The notes beneath the pieces are model-generated. The model did not search any database. It had not been told where the DNA came from and worked only from the letters and a program-made list of their open reading frames with translations. Shown in pieces: positions 24,902 to 32,136 of a stretch of DNA of 53,503 bases. Origin of the DNA: Actinomycetota bacterium (GTDB lineage Bacteria; Actinomycetota; Acidimicrobiia; Actinomarinales; Actinomarinaceae); the NCBI GenBank assembly GCA_014384285.1, contig JACNGE010000017.1, forward strand, positions 1 through 53,503. Direction: 5' to 3'. The stretch's first letter is position 1, and each line of letters begins with the position of its first letter. Position numbers and translations under genes: made by a program.

Positions 24902-25807
24902 TTATTTATTAATTATCTTTGCTAAAAATGGAACTGTAACGAATATAGAGCTATAAGTTCCAGAAAGTATTCCTATAAATAATGGAAGTGCAAAATCAGT
25001 AAGAGTGCCTGATAATCCTAAATAATTACCCAGGAATAGAATGGAGGCTATGGGTATAGCTGAAGTAATTGATGTGTTCAGACTTCTCATAAGAACTTCA
25101 TTAAATGTTTTATTAAGTGAATCATCGGAGAGATAGGAAAATCTTGAAGTCTTCACTGTATCATTCAATTTATCGAAAAGTATAACTGTATCGTATAGTG
25201 AGTAACCTAAAATCGTAAGTAAAGCAATTACTGTTGAAGGAGTTATTTCCAACCCTAGTAACACATAAATTGAGAATACTAACAATAGATCATGCATGAG
25301 TGCAATTAAAGCAATTATTGAGTATTTAAATTCATACCTGTAAGAGATTATTAATATAACTAAAGTTAAAAATATGAGTAAAGCTTGAAGGCCTTTAGAA
25401 GTAATCTCATCTCCAAATGTAGGGCCAACCCTTTGAAAATCAATATTTTCATCGCTTACATCAAATTTATTTGAAAGATAAAAAAGAAATTCTGTCTCTT
25501 TCTGTTGAGTATTTTCTGTTGCGCGGAAAATTATTGAGTCAGAATTGTCAAATGTTTGGTATCTAGAAACATCAAGAATTGAAGAATTCATTACCTCTGA
25601 TATATCCTCATCTGAATAGTTGGCTTCTAGTTGATACGTTGTTCCACCAGTAAAGTCAACAGAAAGATTTACAGGTAATACACCCAGTGAAGACATTATT
25701 AATACAGCCAAAAAAATGACCACTTCTATTAAAAATACTTTATAAAATAATTTTCCAACTTTTAAAAAATCAACATTAGTTGATCCGAGAAACAGACGTT
25801 TAATCAT
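24902..25807 (-). CDS. secF: Protein export membrane protein SecF
   Basis: The 301-residue protein has an N-terminal helix (about 25-45), the extracellular P domain beginning VDFTGGTTYQLEA (about 51-63) and five further helices from about 135 on. The family motif GYSLYDTVILFDKLND (about 200-215) and the last-helix segment are intact. With SecD it uses the proton gradient to pull secreted proteins out of the SecYEG channel. Its start overlaps the secD stop by 8 bases. Confidence 0.96.
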   Translation of the reverse strand: MIKRLFLGSTNVDFLKVGKLFYKVFLIEVVIFLAVLIMSSLGVLPVNLSVDFTGGTTYQLEANYSDEDISEVMNSSILDVSRYQTFDNSDSIIFRATENTQQKETEFLFYLSNKFDVSDENIDFQRVGPTFGDEITSKGLQALLIFLTLVILIISYRYEFKYSIIALIALMHDLLLVFSIYVLLGLEITPSTVIALLTILGYSLYDTVILFDKLNDTVKTSRFSYLSDDSLNKTFNEVLMRSLNTSITSAIPIASILFLGNYLGLSGTLTDFALPLFIGILSGTYSSIFVTVPFLAKIINK

Positions 25808-27254
25808 TTATTAAATCACTTTCTTTTATTGGGAAGAATACTCTCGGGCTCTTAGATAATGAACTTATTACAGGTACAGCATTTCTTGTATAGATTCTAG
25901 TAAATATCAAGTCAAAGATAGTTGCTACTCCAAGTGCAAGTGCAAATCCGCGAATCGGCCCTATTGCTAGAACATACAATAATAATGCAGCTGATAATGA
26001 TACAAAATCTGCTGTCAAAATTGTTTTCCATGCATCTTGTGAAGCTTTTTCAGCCGCGAATTGAAATGATCTACCAATCTTAATTTCATCTTTAAACTTT
26101 TCAAATGTAACAATGTATGAATCGGCAGCTAATCCAATAGAAACAATGATTCCAGCAATCCCGGATAAAGTTAGGGTAAAACCTTGATATTCGCCAAGCA
26201 GAGTTATTACAGAATAGAAAAGCAAACCAAAAGAACTCAATCCAAGAATTGCTACAAGACCTAATGTACGATAATAAAGAATTAGATACATTGAAACAAT
26301 AACCAAACCTACTAATCCTGCTTGTAGTCCCAAGTTCAAGGTATCTTCACCAAGAGTAGCTGAAACTTTTTCTATAGAAGATCTTTCAAATGATACTGGC
26401 AAAGCTCCGTACCTTAGAATAATAGCTAAGTTATTTGCTGATTCCCCTCCATCAGCATTACCCATAGATATTGCTGCAGTTCCACCAGTTATACCAACTG
26501 AAGGATCTACATCAAAGGCAACACCAGGTGCTGAAACAACTTCTCCGTCTAGAACTATAGCTAGCTTTCTCTGTTCACCATTTTGGCTTGCAAGTTTTTT
26601 AGTTAATTCAGTAAATAGCTGTGCAGAGTCTTCTTTAAACTCCAAGGAAACAATCCATTCATTTTCTGGAAACACTGCAATCGCATCAGAAATATCATTA
26701 CCAGTTAACTCTGCAGGACCTAATTGGTATATAACTGGATATCCACCGCTCACTGATAATATATAAGATTCAAATTCAGGATTATCATTAATTGATATAC
26801 CAATAAATTCATCAACCCCGGTTACTCCTTCTTTTATTTTAGTGCTCACATCTTCAGGGTCATCAGGATTTACTTCTAAACTTAGTGCTGGTGAGTATCC
26901 AGTTGTTAGAGATGAGTCGAGTACTGGCCTAAATGTTAATAGTCCAGTTGTTCCTAAAGCTTCAATAGCTCTTTCTTGGTCTGTAACACCTGGTAACTGG
27001 ACAAGCACAGAATTTTCACCGCTTATTGCAATTTCTGGTTCTTGAACATCTCCAAATGCCTCAATCCTAGTTCTCATTATCTCAACTGCCTGCTCTATAA
27101 GTTCTTGATCTGTATCATCATCTGCGGTAAGTATTACTGAAATACCTCCTTGTAAATCAAGTCCTAGTTTTGGTGTTAATTCCTGGATGTAAACTAGAGC
27201 AAACAGAGATGCTGAAATAATCGGTAAAAACAAAATGTTAAAATACTTTTTCAC
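25800..27254 (-). CDS. secD: Protein translocase subunit SecD
   Basis: The 484-residue protein has a first helix (about 5-22), the family motif LGLDLQGGISVIL (about 31-43), P1 base and head domain (45-300) and five C-terminal helices including GIAGIIVSIGLAADSYIVTFEKFKDE (split at 358-370 and 371-383), with the Asp expected in proton coupling. It is shorter than E. coli SecD (615 residues), as is usual for Gram-positive bacteria. It overlaps yajC by 4 bases and secF by 8. Confidence 0.96.
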   Translation of the reverse strand: MKKYFNILFLPIISASLFALVYIQELTPKLGLDLQGGISVILTADDDTDQELIEQAVEIMRTRIEAFGDVQEPEIAISGENSVLVQLPGVTDQERAIEALGTTGLLTFRPVLDSSLTTGYSPALSLEVNPDDPEDVSTKIKEGVTGVDEFIGISINDNPEFESYILSVSGGYPVIYQLGPAELTGNDISDAIAVFPENEWIVSLEFKEDSAQLFTELTKKLASQNGEQRKLAIVLDGEVVSAPGVAFDVDPSVGITGGTAAISMGNADGGESANNLAIILRYGALPVSFERSSIEKVSATLGEDTLNLGLQAGLVGLVIVSMYLILYYRTLGLVAILGLSSFGLLFYSVITLLGEYQGFTLTLSGIAGIIVSIGLAADSYIVTFEKFKDEIKIGRSFQFAAEKASQDAWKTILTADFVSLSAALLLYVLAIGPIRGFALALGVATIFDLIFTRIYTRNAVPVISSLSKSPRVFFPIKESDLIND

Positions 27255-27502
27255 AACAACCCATTAATTTTTGATTTTGCGATTACAACTTCACCTTTTT
27301 TTAATACAAGAGTGACAGTTTTTTCATCTAAGGCAACAATTCTTCCATGCATACCTGAATCAGTTATAACGTTGTTTCCAATTTTGAGTTGATCAAGCAT
27401 TTGATTGTGTTTTTTATTCCTCCTTCTCTGAGGAACCCATAGAATTGTGTAAAAAACGATTAATACGATGACTAAAGGTAATACACTTATTAATTCATTC
27501 AT
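27251..27502 (-). CDS. yajC: Preprotein translocase subunit YajC
   Basis: The 83-residue protein has one N-terminal membrane helix (about 7-23), the RRRNKKHNQML basic stretch (about 27-37) and a small beta domain with IGNNVITDSGMHGRIVALDE (about 44-63), the YajC signature. It associates with SecDF. It overlaps tgt and secD by 4 bases each, in the order queA-tgt-yajC-secD-secF known from many bacteria. Confidence 0.94.
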   Translation of the reverse strand: MNELISVLPLVIVLIVFYTILWVPQRRRNKKHNQMLDQLKIGNNVITDSGMHGRIVALDEKTVTLVLKKGEVVIAKSKINGLL

Positions 27503-28581
27503 ACGTATCTCTTTCTAAAATTAGCAAAATCTGATTCTAATATACTTTTTCTTGCATCATCAAGCATAATCTCAGTCTGAATTAAATTATGAACTGTTAA
27601 ATATAACCAAGCACTTGTTGGCTCATTTCTAAGTATATGTCTCAAGTAAGCTTTTGAATAATTTTTGCAGGTAAAACATGGACATCCTTCGTATATCGGG
27701 GATGGATCATTAGCGAATTGTTTATTCTTTATATTTAAATAAGTATTTCCTGTTATTAATTTTCCGTGTCTGGCTAATCTAGCAGGCCATACACAATCAA
27801 ACATATCAATACCTTCTTCAATTAAATCAATCAAACCCAATGTATCTCCAAGTCCCATTACATATCTTGGTCTGTTTTCAGGTAAAAATTGCGTAGTGTA
27901 GTTAACTATTTCTTTTCTTTCTCCTCTTGTTTCACCTAGGGCAAGACCACCAAGTGCATATCCATCAAACTCTAACTTTGTCATAGAGAGGGCAGATTTT
28001 TCTCTTAATTCTTTTACTAACCCACCTTGGACGATTCCAAAAAGAGACTGATTATTGTTAGCATGTATATTTTTAGCTATATTAGCCCACGTCTCAGTTG
28101 TTTTAATCGCATCTTCTTGTTTCTCAATTGGGGCATCAATATTTACAACATAATCAAATATCATTGCAATATCACTTCCCAGGAGGTTTTGAGTTTTAAT
28201 AGAAACTTCTGGTGTCATTAAAAAAGTAGACCCGTCATATATATTCTTAAACTCTATTCCCTCTTGTATTTTTTTAGTTGGTAATGACCAACCCTGAAAA
28301 CCACCTGAGTCAGTAAGAATAAGCTTATTCCAATTCATAAACTTATGAAGACCACCGAGTTCATTAATCAAATCTGCACCAGGCCTTAGATATAAATGGT
28401 ATGTATTTGCTAATAGAACTGTTGTTTTATCCAGCATTTCGTGAGGAGTTGATTTTAATGAGCCTTTTGTAGCAACTGGCATAAACGTAGGAGTAAGTAA
28501 TTCTTTGTTATTGATTTTGACTATTCCAGCTCTTGCAAAGCTATCTTTTTTAACAATATTAAAATCTAAATTACTCATCAA
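27499..28581 (-). CDS. tgt: tRNA-guanine transglycosylase
   Basis: The 360-residue enzyme exchanges guanine for preQ1 at position 34 of GUN tRNAs. It has TPTFMPVATKGSLK (about 28-41), LTDSGGFQG with the first catalytic Asp, GGLALGE, and FDCVWPARLARHG with the nucleophilic Asp. The zinc site CPCFTCKNYSKAYLRH is followed by a further His. Two adjacent start codons exist (28581 and 28578); the first overlaps queA by 11 bases. It works with QueA upstream; no preQ0 synthesis genes are in the window. Confidence 0.96.
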   Translation of the reverse strand: MMSNLDFNIVKKDSFARAGIVKINNKELLTPTFMPVATKGSLKSTPHEMLDKTTVLLANTYHLYLRPGADLINELGGLHKFMNWNKLILTDSGGFQGWSLPTKKIQEGIEFKNIYDGSTFLMTPEVSIKTQNLLGSDIAMIFDYVVNIDAPIEKQEDAIKTTETWANIAKNIHANNNQSLFGIVQGGLVKELREKSALSMTKLEFDGYALGGLALGETRGERKEIVNYTTQFLPENRPRYVMGLGDTLGLIDLIEEGIDMFDCVWPARLARHGKLITGNTYLNIKNKQFANDPSPIYEGCPCFTCKNYSKAYLRHILRNEPTSAWLYLTVHNLIQTEIMLDDARKSILESDFANFRKRYV

Positions 28582-29572
28582 TCTTGAATATTACTGCATC
28601 CCCAAAACTTAAAAACTTAAGATTATTATTTTGTGCATATTCATAAAGTTCTTTCCAATTATCTCCATATATTGATTTAACAATTGATAACAATGTACTT
28701 TTCGGTGCATGAAAATTTGTTATTAGGTAATCCCCTATATTAAATTTATAACCAGGAGTTATAAAAAGATTGGACATACCTTCATAGACTCCCGTATTGA
28801 AAACAGTTTCTAGAGTTCTTAAGACAGTAGTTCCAACCTGAACAATTTTATATCCAGATTGCTTTAAAGTCAGAATTTTCTTATAATCGTTTTCCTCTAT
28901 CCTATAATATTCAGAGTGTATTTTGTAGTTCTCAACTATTTTTGTGTCTATTGGTTTGAAAGTACCAAGGTTTATGTCTAAGTTAATAAAAATTACTTCA
29001 TGTCCGTTGAACTTTAATTGCTCAATCATGTCTAGGGTAAAATGTAAACCTGCTGTAGAAGATGCAACAGAAAAGCCGCCACTAGAGAATTCATTAATGT
29101 AATCTTTGTATTTCGATGAATCATCTTTTATATAGGGTGGCAAAGGTACAGTACCAAATCTGTCTATTAGACTATTTACATTTTCACTAAATTCTATAGT
29201 GTAAGTACTCGCATCTTTATTCAGAATTTTTATTTCAGCTATTTCGGTATTTAAAGTGTCACCTATTTTTATTTTTCCTGATGATTTGATAAGAACTTCA
29301 GCTTGGTAGTCGTTTTTTATAACTAATACAAAAAGTTCAACTTTACCCTGTGTGTCTACTTTATTTGTTTTAATTCTTACATTTCTAACTTTAGATTTAT
29401 TGAAGATAAAAACAGATTGTTCTTGAAGAGTTTCTATATACTGACTGAACTTAATTATTTTTTTAGATTCACTAATTAATAATTTTGAATTCTTGGGTTC
29501 GATATATCTGTTCTGTGCAATTGAAGATGTCTCTAGATTGTAATCTAAATCATCTATCGGTGTATTGAACAA
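28571..29572 (-). CDS. queA: S-adenosylmethionine:tRNA ribosyltransferase-isomerase
   Basis: The 333-residue enzyme adds the epoxycyclopentanediol moiety from SAM to preQ1-tRNA. It is recognised by PLPPYIKDDSSKYKDYINEF (about 142-161), SVASSTAGLHFTLDMI (about 167-182), VGTTVLRTLE (about 246-255) and NFHAPKSTLLSIV (about 288-300). The N-terminus MFNTPIDDLDYNLETSSIAQ is typical. It begins directly after the stop of the nuclease-like gene with no gap and overlaps tgt by 11 bases. Confidence 0.95.
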   Translation of the reverse strand: MFNTPIDDLDYNLETSSIAQNRYIEPKNSKLLISESKKIIKFSQYIETLQEQSVFIFNKSKVRNVRIKTNKVDTQGKVELFVLVIKNDYQAEVLIKSSGKIKIGDTLNTEIAEIKILNKDASTYTIEFSENVNSLIDRFGTVPLPPYIKDDSSKYKDYINEFSSGGFSVASSTAGLHFTLDMIEQLKFNGHEVIFINLDINLGTFKPIDTKIVENYKIHSEYYRIEENDYKKILTLKQSGYKIVQVGTTVLRTLETVFNTGVYEGMSNLFITPGYKFNIGDYLITNFHAPKSTLLSIVKSIYGDNWKELYEYAQNNNLKFLSFGDAVIFKIDE

Positions 29573-29926
29573 TTATTTTTCTAAAAGTTTAACAAACAGG
29601 TCATATGACATTGATATTACCTCGGGTATACCATCGTTTGTCCTTCTTGAATTATTGTCTTTACGTTTGAGTTTTTTCCAAAATACTAGAGTATTAGTAT
29701 CACCAGATTTTGTAATAGCTTTATCAAGAGTTTGGTGTAGATTTAGGTTTTGACGTGATTTAGCTTCTATAAAGAATTCTTCTTCTCCTATAAATAATTG
29801 AATATCTCCTAAATCGTTAGAGCCACCTTCTGCAAATCTTTGAGCTCTAAAATTAGATACATTATTAAGCCTATTTACAATGTTTGTTTCGTAGTTAGTA
29901 CCTTGTTTTTTTGCTTTATTTACCAT
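29573..29926 (-). CDS. Hjc-like PD-(D/E)XK nuclease in the ruvC position
   Basis: The 117-residue protein has an N-terminal Lys/Gln/Gly segment and Glu13 (GTNYETNIVNRL), then AEGGSNDLGDIQLF (about 32-45) with Asp41, then a strand and FFIEAKSRQ (about 51-59) with Glu54-x-Lys56. This E...D...ExK spacing is that of archaeal Hjc and related PD-(D/E)XK junction-cutting or repair nucleases. It lies between yebC and queA, where most bacteria have ruvC-ruvA-ruvB. From this I infer it may supply the Holliday junction resolvase function, but a general nuclease role, or a restriction-like one, is also possible. The 19-base gap to yebC and zero gap to queA show it is part of the operon. Confidence 0.78.
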   Translation of the reverse strand: MVNKAKKQGTNYETNIVNRLNNVSNFRAQRFAEGGSNDLGDIQLFIGEEEFFIEAKSRQNLNLHQTLDKAITKSGDTNTLVFWKKLKRKDNNSRRTNDGIPEVISMSYDLFVKLLEK

Positions 29927-29945: not shown

Positions 29946-30689
29946 TTATTCATTTAATGCAGCATGCATAAGATTCTCTTCAATATCAAAATTTGTATAT
30001 ACATTTTGAACGTCATCGAGATCTTCTAGTGAATCAATTAACTTGGATAATTTTTGAAATTTTGACAAATCTAGCATAACAAAAGTTGATGGAATGTATG
30101 CAACTTCAGAATTCGTAGTTCTAAAATTATTGTTTATGAATATTTCATTTATTTTTTTGAAATCTTGGGGAAGAAATTCAAATGTTAAGCTCGATTCATT
30201 TTCACTGAAATCAAGACAGGAGTTTTCAATTGCTAAATCTATCAGGATATCGCTACGTTCATCAAATTGGAACACTGCTTTTCTTTCAAAAAGATAATTT
30301 ACACTTCCTGGGGCTCCAGTGGACCCATCAAACTTTGAGAAAATCGATTTTACGTCAGCAGAAGTTCTGTTCCGATTATCAGTTAGACATTCTACAAGTA
30401 TTGCTACCCCATGAGGTCCATATCCTTCATAGAAAACTTCATCAAAGTTATCACTTTCTTGCTGACCACTTAAACGTTTGAGTGCTTTCTCTATATTGTC
30501 GTTGGGGACAGACATAGACTTAGCTTTTGATATAGCTTGATAAAGAGATGCATTGCTTGATGGGTCAGCACCACCGTTTTTTGCAGCTACTTCTATTGCC
30601 CTAATAAGTTTTGCAAAAAGTTTACCTCTTTTAACATCGTTTGCTCCCTTTTTTCTTTTAATTGTTGACCATTTAGAGTGCCCCGACAT
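29946..30689 (-). CDS. yebC: YebC/TACO1-family translation or transcription regulator
   Basis: The 247-residue protein starts with the invariant MSGHSKWSTIKRKKG and continues ANDVKRGKLFAKLIRAIEVA, then IEKALKR, and GYGPHGVAILVECLTDNRNR (about 88-107). The family was first described as a transcription regulator; some members have since been linked to relief of polyproline stalling. Its start lies 17 bases inside pdxT. The order pdxT-yebC followed by the Holliday junction genes is the actinobacterial standard. Confidence 0.95.
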   Translation of the reverse strand: MSGHSKWSTIKRKKGANDVKRGKLFAKLIRAIEVAAKNGGADPSSNASLYQAISKAKSMSVPNDNIEKALKRLSGQQESDNFDEVFYEGYGPHGVAILVECLTDNRNRTSADVKSIFSKFDGSTGAPGSVNYLFERKAVFQFDERSDILIDLAIENSCLDFSENESSLTFEFLPQDFKKINEIFINNNFRTTNSEVAYIPSTFVMLDLSKFQKLSKLIDSLEDLDDVQNVYTNFDIEENLMHAALNE

Positions 30690-31251
30690 TTAATCCTTTC
30701 ATTACAAAATTATCTAACCAATTTAAATAATTTTGCTCATTATTTAGTTCTGGATGAAAAGTTAAACCAACAATATTGTTTGATTGAACACCTACGATTT
30801 CATCTTCCATTTTAGCTATCACCTTTACCCCACTGCCTACACTTGTAATTTTAGGTGCTCTAATGAAACAATAATTATCATTAAAGTTGTTAAATTGAAC
30901 TTTCCCTTCAAATGATTGATTCTGTCTACCGTAACCATTTCTTTCAATATCACAGTCAAGTATGTTGAGTGTACTTTTACCTAAAATAGAATTCTTTGCT
31001 AACAGTATTAATCCAGCACAAGTTCCAAGCGTAGGTATTCCAGTAAGAATCTTAATTTTAAGATGATTAAATAGGTCATTGTTTTCTTGAATTTTAATCA
31101 TAGAGGTTGATTCACCACCAGGTAAGATAATTGAACCAACTTCTTCTAAATCGTCAACTGTACGGATTAAAATGAAATCTCTCTCGATTAATTTAAGAGA
31201 TTCAAGGTGTTCCTGAAAGCTTCCTTGAAGTGCTAGGATACCTGTTTTCAA
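30673..31251 (-). CDS. pdxT: Pyridoxal 5'-phosphate synthase glutaminase subunit
   Basis: The 192-residue class I-type glutaminase supplies ammonia to PdxS. It begins KTGILALQGSFQEHLESL and has LPGGESTSM (about 44-52), GTCAGLILLA (about 75-84) with the nucleophilic Cys, and the His-x-Glu dyad in TFHPELNNEQ (about 167-176). Immediately follows pdxS with no gap. Confidence 0.95.
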   Translation of the reverse strand: MKTGILALQGSFQEHLESLKLIERDFILIRTVDDLEEVGSIILPGGESTSMIKIQENNDLFNHLKIKILTGIPTLGTCAGLILLAKNSILGKSTLNILDCDIERNGYGRQNQSFEGKVQFNNFNDNYCFIRAPKITSVGSGVKVIAKMEDEIVGVQSNNIVGLTFHPELNNEQNYLNWLDNFVMKGLNVGAL

Positions 31252-32136
31252 CTACCAACCTCTTTTAGCGAGCTTCTCCGATTCATGTAGATCATCAATG
31301 TTAATACCAACCATAGGTTCGCCAAGATTCTTGGAAACTTCAACTAATTTTGCAGGATTGTCATAATTAGTTGTAGCTATTACAATTGCTTCAGCTCTTT
31401 CTAATGGATCTCCACTCTTAAATATTCCGGAGCCAACAAACACTCCATCACATCCAAGCTGCATCATTAAGGCTGCATCAGCTGGCGTTGCTATACCTCC
31501 TGCTGCAAAATTTACTACAGGTAATCTGCCACTTTCTCTTATTGAATTTAATACCGTAACAGGTGCCCCATAATTCTTAGCTAGTGCCATGAGTTCATTT
31601 TCATCAGCTGATAAGACTTCATTAATTCCTTTGGTCATACTTCTCATATGTCTGACAGCTTCTATGACATTGCCAGTTCCGGCTTCACCTTTAGTTCTTA
31701 TCATTGCAGCACCTTCACCAATTCGCCTGCACGCTTCACCTATATCTGTAGCACCATTTACAAAAGGTGTTTTAATTTCATGTTTACTAATATGATTAAC
31801 CTCATCAGCAGGTGTAAGAACCTCACTTTCGTCAATAAAATCAATACCTAGTTCTTCTAAAATCTGAGCTTCAACAAAGTGGCCAATTCTTGCTTTAGCC
31901 ATAACTGGAATAGAAACCGTGTTCATAACTTCTTGAATGACTTCAACAGATGACATTCTTGAAACTCCGCCCTCGGCTCTTATATCTGCCGGAATTCTTT
32001 CTAGTGCCATAACAGCAACTGCCCCAGATTTTTCAGCAATTTTAGCTTGCTCAGCATTAACGACATCCATGATAACGCCACCTTTGAGCATCTCTGCAAA
32101 ACCTTTTTTTACTTTAAATGTAGATTCAATTTTCAT
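31252..32136 (-). CDS. pdxS: Pyridoxal 5'-phosphate synthase lyase subunit
   Basis: The 294-residue TIM-barrel protein makes PLP from ribose 5-phosphate, glyceraldehyde 3-phosphate and ammonia. It has [20 protein letters not shown] (about 15-34), [36 protein letters not shown] with the Schiff-base Lys, and [16 protein letters not shown]. These are nearly invariant in the family. With pdxT downstream it gives a complete deoxyxylulose-independent B6 pathway; the glycine decarboxylase genes elsewhere in the window need this cofactor. Confidence 0.97.

Follow-up and report, generated by a model that had tools for sequence, protein, structure and literature searches.

The window, that is, the whole analysed stretch of 53,503 nucleotides, originated from a Ca. 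Actinomarinales genome (1.10 Mb, 92% complete). The reading frame of 117 residues on which the original prediction was based could be confirmed at 29573–29926 of the minus strand. It was located within a tight row of genes sharing the same strand, in the order pdxS, pdxT, yebC, resolvase ORF, queA, tgt, yajC, secD, secF, and relA. The features of the locus were as follows.

31252–32136, minus strand: pdxS, conserved upstream flank, assigned by locus comparison
30673–31251, minus strand: pdxT, conserved upstream flank, assigned by locus comparison
29946–30689, minus strand: yebC, upstream neighbour of the resolvase gene (Pfam TACO1_YebC_N and Transcrip_reg)
29573–29926, minus strand: gene of a Hjc-fold PD-(D/E)XK nuclease, a phrog_244-type putative Holliday junction resolvase (117 aa, stop codon included in the coordinates)
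about 29888–29890, minus strand: Glu13 codon, upstream of the E-A-K codons, computed from the ORF
about 29804–29806, minus strand: Asp41 codon, upstream of the E-A-K codons, computed from the ORF
29759–29767, minus strand: codons of Glu54-x-Lys56 (E-A-K motif) of the PD-(D/E)XK catalytic core, computed from the ORF
28571–29572, minus strand: queA (Pfam Queuosine_synth)
27499–28581, minus strand: tgt (Pfam TGT)
27251–27502, minus strand: yajC (Pfam YajC)
25800–27254, minus strand: secD (Pfam SecD)
24902–25807, minus strand: secF, assigned by comparing gene order and homology over 36 loci and the outgroups

Pfam analysis confirmed yebC, queA, tgt, yajC, and secD at these positions and in the order originally described, while secF, correctly placed at the end of the described row, and relA were assigned from order and homology across loci. 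The end of yebC was separated from the start of the resolvase gene by 19 bases, and the stop codon of the resolvase gene abutted the queA start with 0 intergenic bases.

Profile comparison of the window protein revealed a match to phrog_244, a phage family that carries the label RusA-like Holliday junction resolvase, over residues 1–116 (E 8.4e-11), with other orthologues matching at about 1e-11. The term RusA-like is a label of that family only, and the window protein itself had no match to RusA. A profile-profile comparison of the orthologues against 14 actinophage and prophage resolvases received a probability of 97% (E 6e-11) over 108 columns. When searched against the PDB, a profile of 20 orthologues ranked Sulfolobus Hjc first with a weak E value of 0.056, and these Hjc chains were also recovered, at E 0.005, with a profile of the 14 actinophage and prophage relatives. 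A Pfam scan of the window protein to E 10 gave PDDEXK_15 (PF24608) alone, at 20.1 bits (E 6.5e-4), which was under the curated cut-off of 27; the best orthologue received 22.4 bits. No match of the window protein to the Pfam families of Hjc (PF01870), RusA, or RecU could be observed, and the best orthologue for Hjc (L022) received 12.2 bits against a cut-off of 21.1. The predicted pattern of Glu13, Asp41, and Glu54-x-Lys56 was invariant in 20 orthologues, whose identity to the window protein was 74–90%. These residues (E13, D41, E54, and K56) aligned with E12, D42, E55, and K57, the catalytic residues of Hjc (PMC6555300). The description of the protein as Hjc-type could be retained for the fold and the active site, while its sequence family is that of phrog_244 and the actinophage resolvases; the profile search suggested along with it left PF01870 unmatched and PDDEXK_15 below its cut-off and recovered phrog_244.

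An AlphaFold model based on 38 sequences (pLDDT 79.7, pTM 0.76), which superseded a poor 22-sequence model (pLDDT 64), contained the anticipated PD-(D/E)XK core with its elements in the order helix, three strands, helix, strand, strand, and helix. The nearest solved folds were those of archaeal Hjc/Hje. The top 12 PDB fold matches were all Hjc, with probabilities of 0.98–1.00 and one of 0.90, the best at E 1.2e-3. Archaeal Hjc/Hje also accounted for most of the first 28 matches, at E 1e-3 to 5e-2 and with TM-scores of only 0.39–0.48. The rest were Bax1 nucleases and restriction enzymes, RecU structures appeared only at ranks 36–39 with E above 0.1, and the RNase H fold of RuvC was not matched by the model of the window protein.

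In the public genome collection, 36 loci with the resolvase gene were found. Most of them bore the name Ca. Actinomarinales, Actinomarina, or OCS155 cluster, and a few were unclassified Actinomycetota or Acidimicrobiia. The order pdxT-yebC-resolvase-queA-tgt was conserved in 35/35 loci whose gene was uncut by a contig end. Among 42 surveyed genomes of Ca. Actinomarinales, which were 51–94% complete, 37 carried the gene. The five remaining genomes also lacked yebC, while three lacked queA and two had a queA fragment only; therefore the whole locus was unassembled there due to assembly gaps. A single-sequence search of 296 other genomes of the phylum did not reveal a relative of the resolvase, and in a profile search within the class the single clear relative beyond the order came from genome G343, where its surroundings were phage-like. 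This Acidimicrobiia relative (L109, 1103–1447, on contig C107) was also the closest single-sequence match found, with 34% over 94 residues. Weak phrog_244 matches in two further genomes (G031 and G189, E about 1e-5) were located within frames of 460–499 codons.

Across the order, the protein identity was 73–90%, and the resolvase protein was more conserved than YebC and QueA at the same loci. The median dN/dS was about 0.11 over 61 usable pairs, as obtained by a simple Nei-Gojobori calculation with partly saturated synonymous sites. The gene is under purifying selection. This dN/dS, together with a conservation above that of yebC and queA, indicates that the ORF is a real gene and no chance ORF.

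Two outgroup loci (L149 and L155) were read gene by gene and contained yebC, ruvC, ruvA, ruvB, queA, and tgt contiguously, with RuvC, RuvA, and RuvB confirmed by Pfam. Other outgroups showed pdxS-pdxT-yebC, a gap of a few kilobases with ruvC, and then queA-tgt-yajC-secD-secF-relA. Since the layout of the outgroups read in detail was yebC-ruvC-ruvA-ruvB-queA-tgt-yajC-secD-secF, a single gene has been substituted for the three ruv genes at the same position, and the proposed non-orthologous displacement at the original locus was borne out by these loci. It is considered highly likely that the resolvase gene took the exact ruvC-ruvA-ruvB slot in the ancestor of the order, a judgement which is made jointly with that on the housekeeping role of the enzyme given below.

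The three ruv genes had been proposed to be gone, and intact copies elsewhere in the genome were looked for and not found in either the own genome or the 42 genomes of the order. RuvC (PF02075) had no match in the own genome, even at E 10, and was above the cut-off in 0/42 genomes, while RuvA was found in 0/42 at E 0.1. RuvB_N matches across the 42 genomes reached at most 41 bits, compared to 251–256 bits for the true RuvB of relatives with the RuvB profile. The RuvB_N matches above the cut-off in the own genome (36.9 and 26–28 bits) were rejected as RuvB; the best two were DnaX (L001) and ClpX (L002), and the third, a 619-codon frame, was probably FtsH as judged by its length. As the own genome is 92% complete, the absence of RuvABC rests on the 42-genome survey and not on this genome alone. 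RuvC was present in 91 of 119 sampled genomes of the same class, covering 68 of 69 genera, and the sole genus without it was that of Actinomarinales. That RuvABC lies elsewhere in the real genomes and is missing only from the MAG and SAG assemblies appears scarcely credible. Completeness of 51–94% leaves room for such gaps, but RuvC and RuvA were missing from all 42 genomes while RecG was detected in every one, and the ruv slot was assembled and occupied in 37 of them.

RecA was present, and RecG (detected in 42/42 genomes) was full length and above the strict cut-off in 33, some of the matches below the cut-off being fragments at contig ends. A second PF00154 match (L181), considered as RadA, was DnaB. 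With RecA and RecG present and ruvABC absent, recombination has been kept, and the loss is limited to the Ruv branch. The RecG survey also produced a second strong match in about 15 of the 42 genomes, a frame of about 1050 codons which is presumably Mfd. This frame was missing from the remaining genomes, the own genome and some 90% complete ones among them, and transcription-repair coupling may have been lost in one Actinomarinales sub-group.

Single-sequence searches gave no match to the resolvase among plasmids and viral contigs, and the best value among phages was E 0.08; therefore, profiles were needed to find its relatives. A total of 336 phage records matched the prophage copy from Acidimicrobiia. 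Most of them were annotated as Holliday junction resolvase, and the phage copies were often found beside helicase, primase, RecT, or NrdH genes. Relatives were also carried by a large group of marine phages related to Roseobacter phage CRP-810. A well-conserved marine phage family of about 80 IMG/VR contigs (L187–L266; Roseobacter phage CRP-810 gp22) carried a resolvase of the phrog_244 type and fold class. It shared the RLNFHDAL/NLNLHQTL region and an N-terminal KAKG motif with the Actinomarina protein, and formed a deep clade separate from it. In the neighbourhoods of L075 and phage CRP-810, the resolvase gene was flanked by a primase-type gene on one side and a 2OG-Fe(II) oxygenase gene on the other.

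Two very divergent nucleases of the resolvase family, each a second one in its bin, could be observed within Actinomarina MAG bins. One was found in the own genome (L107, 2340–2681 of the 3780-base contig C9) beside a primase/helicase-like gene, and the other (L108, 2511–2876 of contig C45 in G300) lay beside a ribonucleotide-reductase-like gene. These small phage-like contigs possibly represent Actinomarina phages or bin contamination. The phage nature of the relatives, along with such contigs in the MAGs, would also fit a phage or defence remnant that landed between yebC and queA after the ruv loss and has no housekeeping role. This is very improbable given the universal retention of the gene at a single fixed position with no adjoining phage genes, the low dN/dS, and the conservation exceeding that of its neighbours yebC and queA.

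The phylogenetic tree was constructed without the archaeal Hjc rows, which were too long-branched to use. The Actinomarina proteins formed their own clade (99/99) among deep branches and were placed inside no phage clade. As the relatives are overwhelmingly phage genes, phage-to-host transfer is the natural reading of the origin, while transfer from host to phage is conceivable. The chances are about even that a phage resolvase was captured into the ruv operon in a streamlined marine bacterium and replaced the whole of RuvABC, with a major free-living order now resolving its recombination intermediates by one phage-derived Hjc-fold enzyme and RecG.

Resolution of recombination intermediates starts from joint molecules made by RecA; the branch point is then shifted by a motor protein, and two strands opposite each other are cut by a nuclease dimer. 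With considerable confidence, Ca. Actinomarinales use the small Hjc-fold PD-(D/E)XK nuclease of the phrog_244 type as their housekeeping Holliday junction resolvase; a near-universal repair step has probably been taken over by a single enzyme here. One nuclease can stand in for RuvC but not for RuvAB. In the absence of RuvAB, RecG is the one known motor left, and branch migration presumably passes to the retained RecG in a putative partnership with the nuclease. In such a pathway, RecA would form the joint molecules, and RecG would replace RuvAB in migrating or regressing the branch point. A putative homodimer of the 117-aa protein would then bind the four-way junction and may make paired metal-dependent nicks via Glu13, Asp41, Glu54, and Lys56, leaving ligatable duplexes. 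RusA may be regarded as the closest functional precedent for a phage-type resolvase acting with RecG. When active, RusA from a prophage rescues ruv mutants of E. coli (PMC3533792), and RusA may require RecG for branch migration to cleavable sites (PMC3403352).

The name Holliday junction resolvase is an annotation in the members of phrog_244, for which no experiment was found. PD-(D/E)XK nucleases of about 117-aa size can act on other substrates. The protein could be a structure-specific or flap/replication-fork nuclease of the Hjc fold, with RecG and another unrecognised enzyme (e.g., YqgF) handling the junctions and the ruv slot being coincidental. The lower-ranked fold matches to Bax1 and restriction nucleases are in line with this, and phage resolvases are described as often promiscuous on branched DNA (PMC3864405). 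Nevertheless, this is unlikely, as the nearest families in both structure and sequence are junction resolvases, and the gene occupies the ruv slot and is kept wherever the locus is assembled, the lineage that carries it being exactly the one that lost RuvC.

The known systems closest to the putative housekeeping resolvase include the phrog_244 and actinobacteriophage resolvases, e.g., Mycobacterium phage NelitzaMV gp84. These matched over the full length, were of the same size (115–130 aa), and had in common the E...GD...E-x-K pattern and the C-terminal KR...V-x-M...LL region, with an identity of about 26–34% to the separate Actinomarina clade. Whereas phrog_244 genes occur in the replication/recombination module of phages, the Actinomarina gene is chromosomal, and every complete locus has it between yebC and queA. 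Archaeal Hjc/Hje (PF01870; PDB 1HH1, 1GEF, 2WCW, and 1OB8) share the fold and the four catalytic residues, but the Actinomarina protein is bacterial, its C-terminal half has diverged, and it does not reach PF01870. The RuvABC resolvasome has the same genomic slot and presumed cellular role; however, it consists of three proteins with RuvC of the RNase H fold, while the Actinomarina system has one protein and lacks a RuvAB motor. RusA of lambdoid prophages and RecU of Firmicutes are likewise non-orthologous replacements of RuvC. RusA also works without RuvAB but has an unrelated fold, and RecU works beside RuvAB and outside the ruv locus (PMC1193525, PMC3403352). Neither of them replaces all three ruv genes in place across a whole order, as the Actinomarina gene does.

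RuvABC is the machine with which nearly all bacteria separate recombining chromosomes, and RuvAB ranks with the most widely conserved recombination genes of bacteria. A survey of 117 genomes by Rocha and colleagues revealed only two RecA-bearing genomes without RuvAB, those of Wigglesworthia and Aquifex, both with RecG, and the same authors noted that resolvases might be supplied by prophages (PMC1193525). In the genome paper on Ca. Actinomarinales (PMC7771536), strong homologous recombination was reported, and neither ruv, Holliday, nor resolvase was mentioned. The literature searched, to which Aravind and colleagues' survey of the resolvase families from 2000 did not belong, contained no earlier report of this RuvABC replacement. 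Non-orthologous displacement of resolvases is known; what is unusual here is that all three ruv genes were displaced, in place and order-wide, by one phage-type Hjc-fold gene. A role of YebC in regulating RuvABC was suggested in the past (PMC3403352). The retention of YebC (29946–30689) at this locus despite the loss of every ruv gene speaks against a ruv-specific role of the protein. An abundant, free-living marine order of tiny actinobacteria that shows signs of strong homologous recombination without RuvABC represents a natural experiment on whether RecG and one small nuclease suffice, and phrog_244, whose function was found only as annotation, gains a testable housekeeping role.
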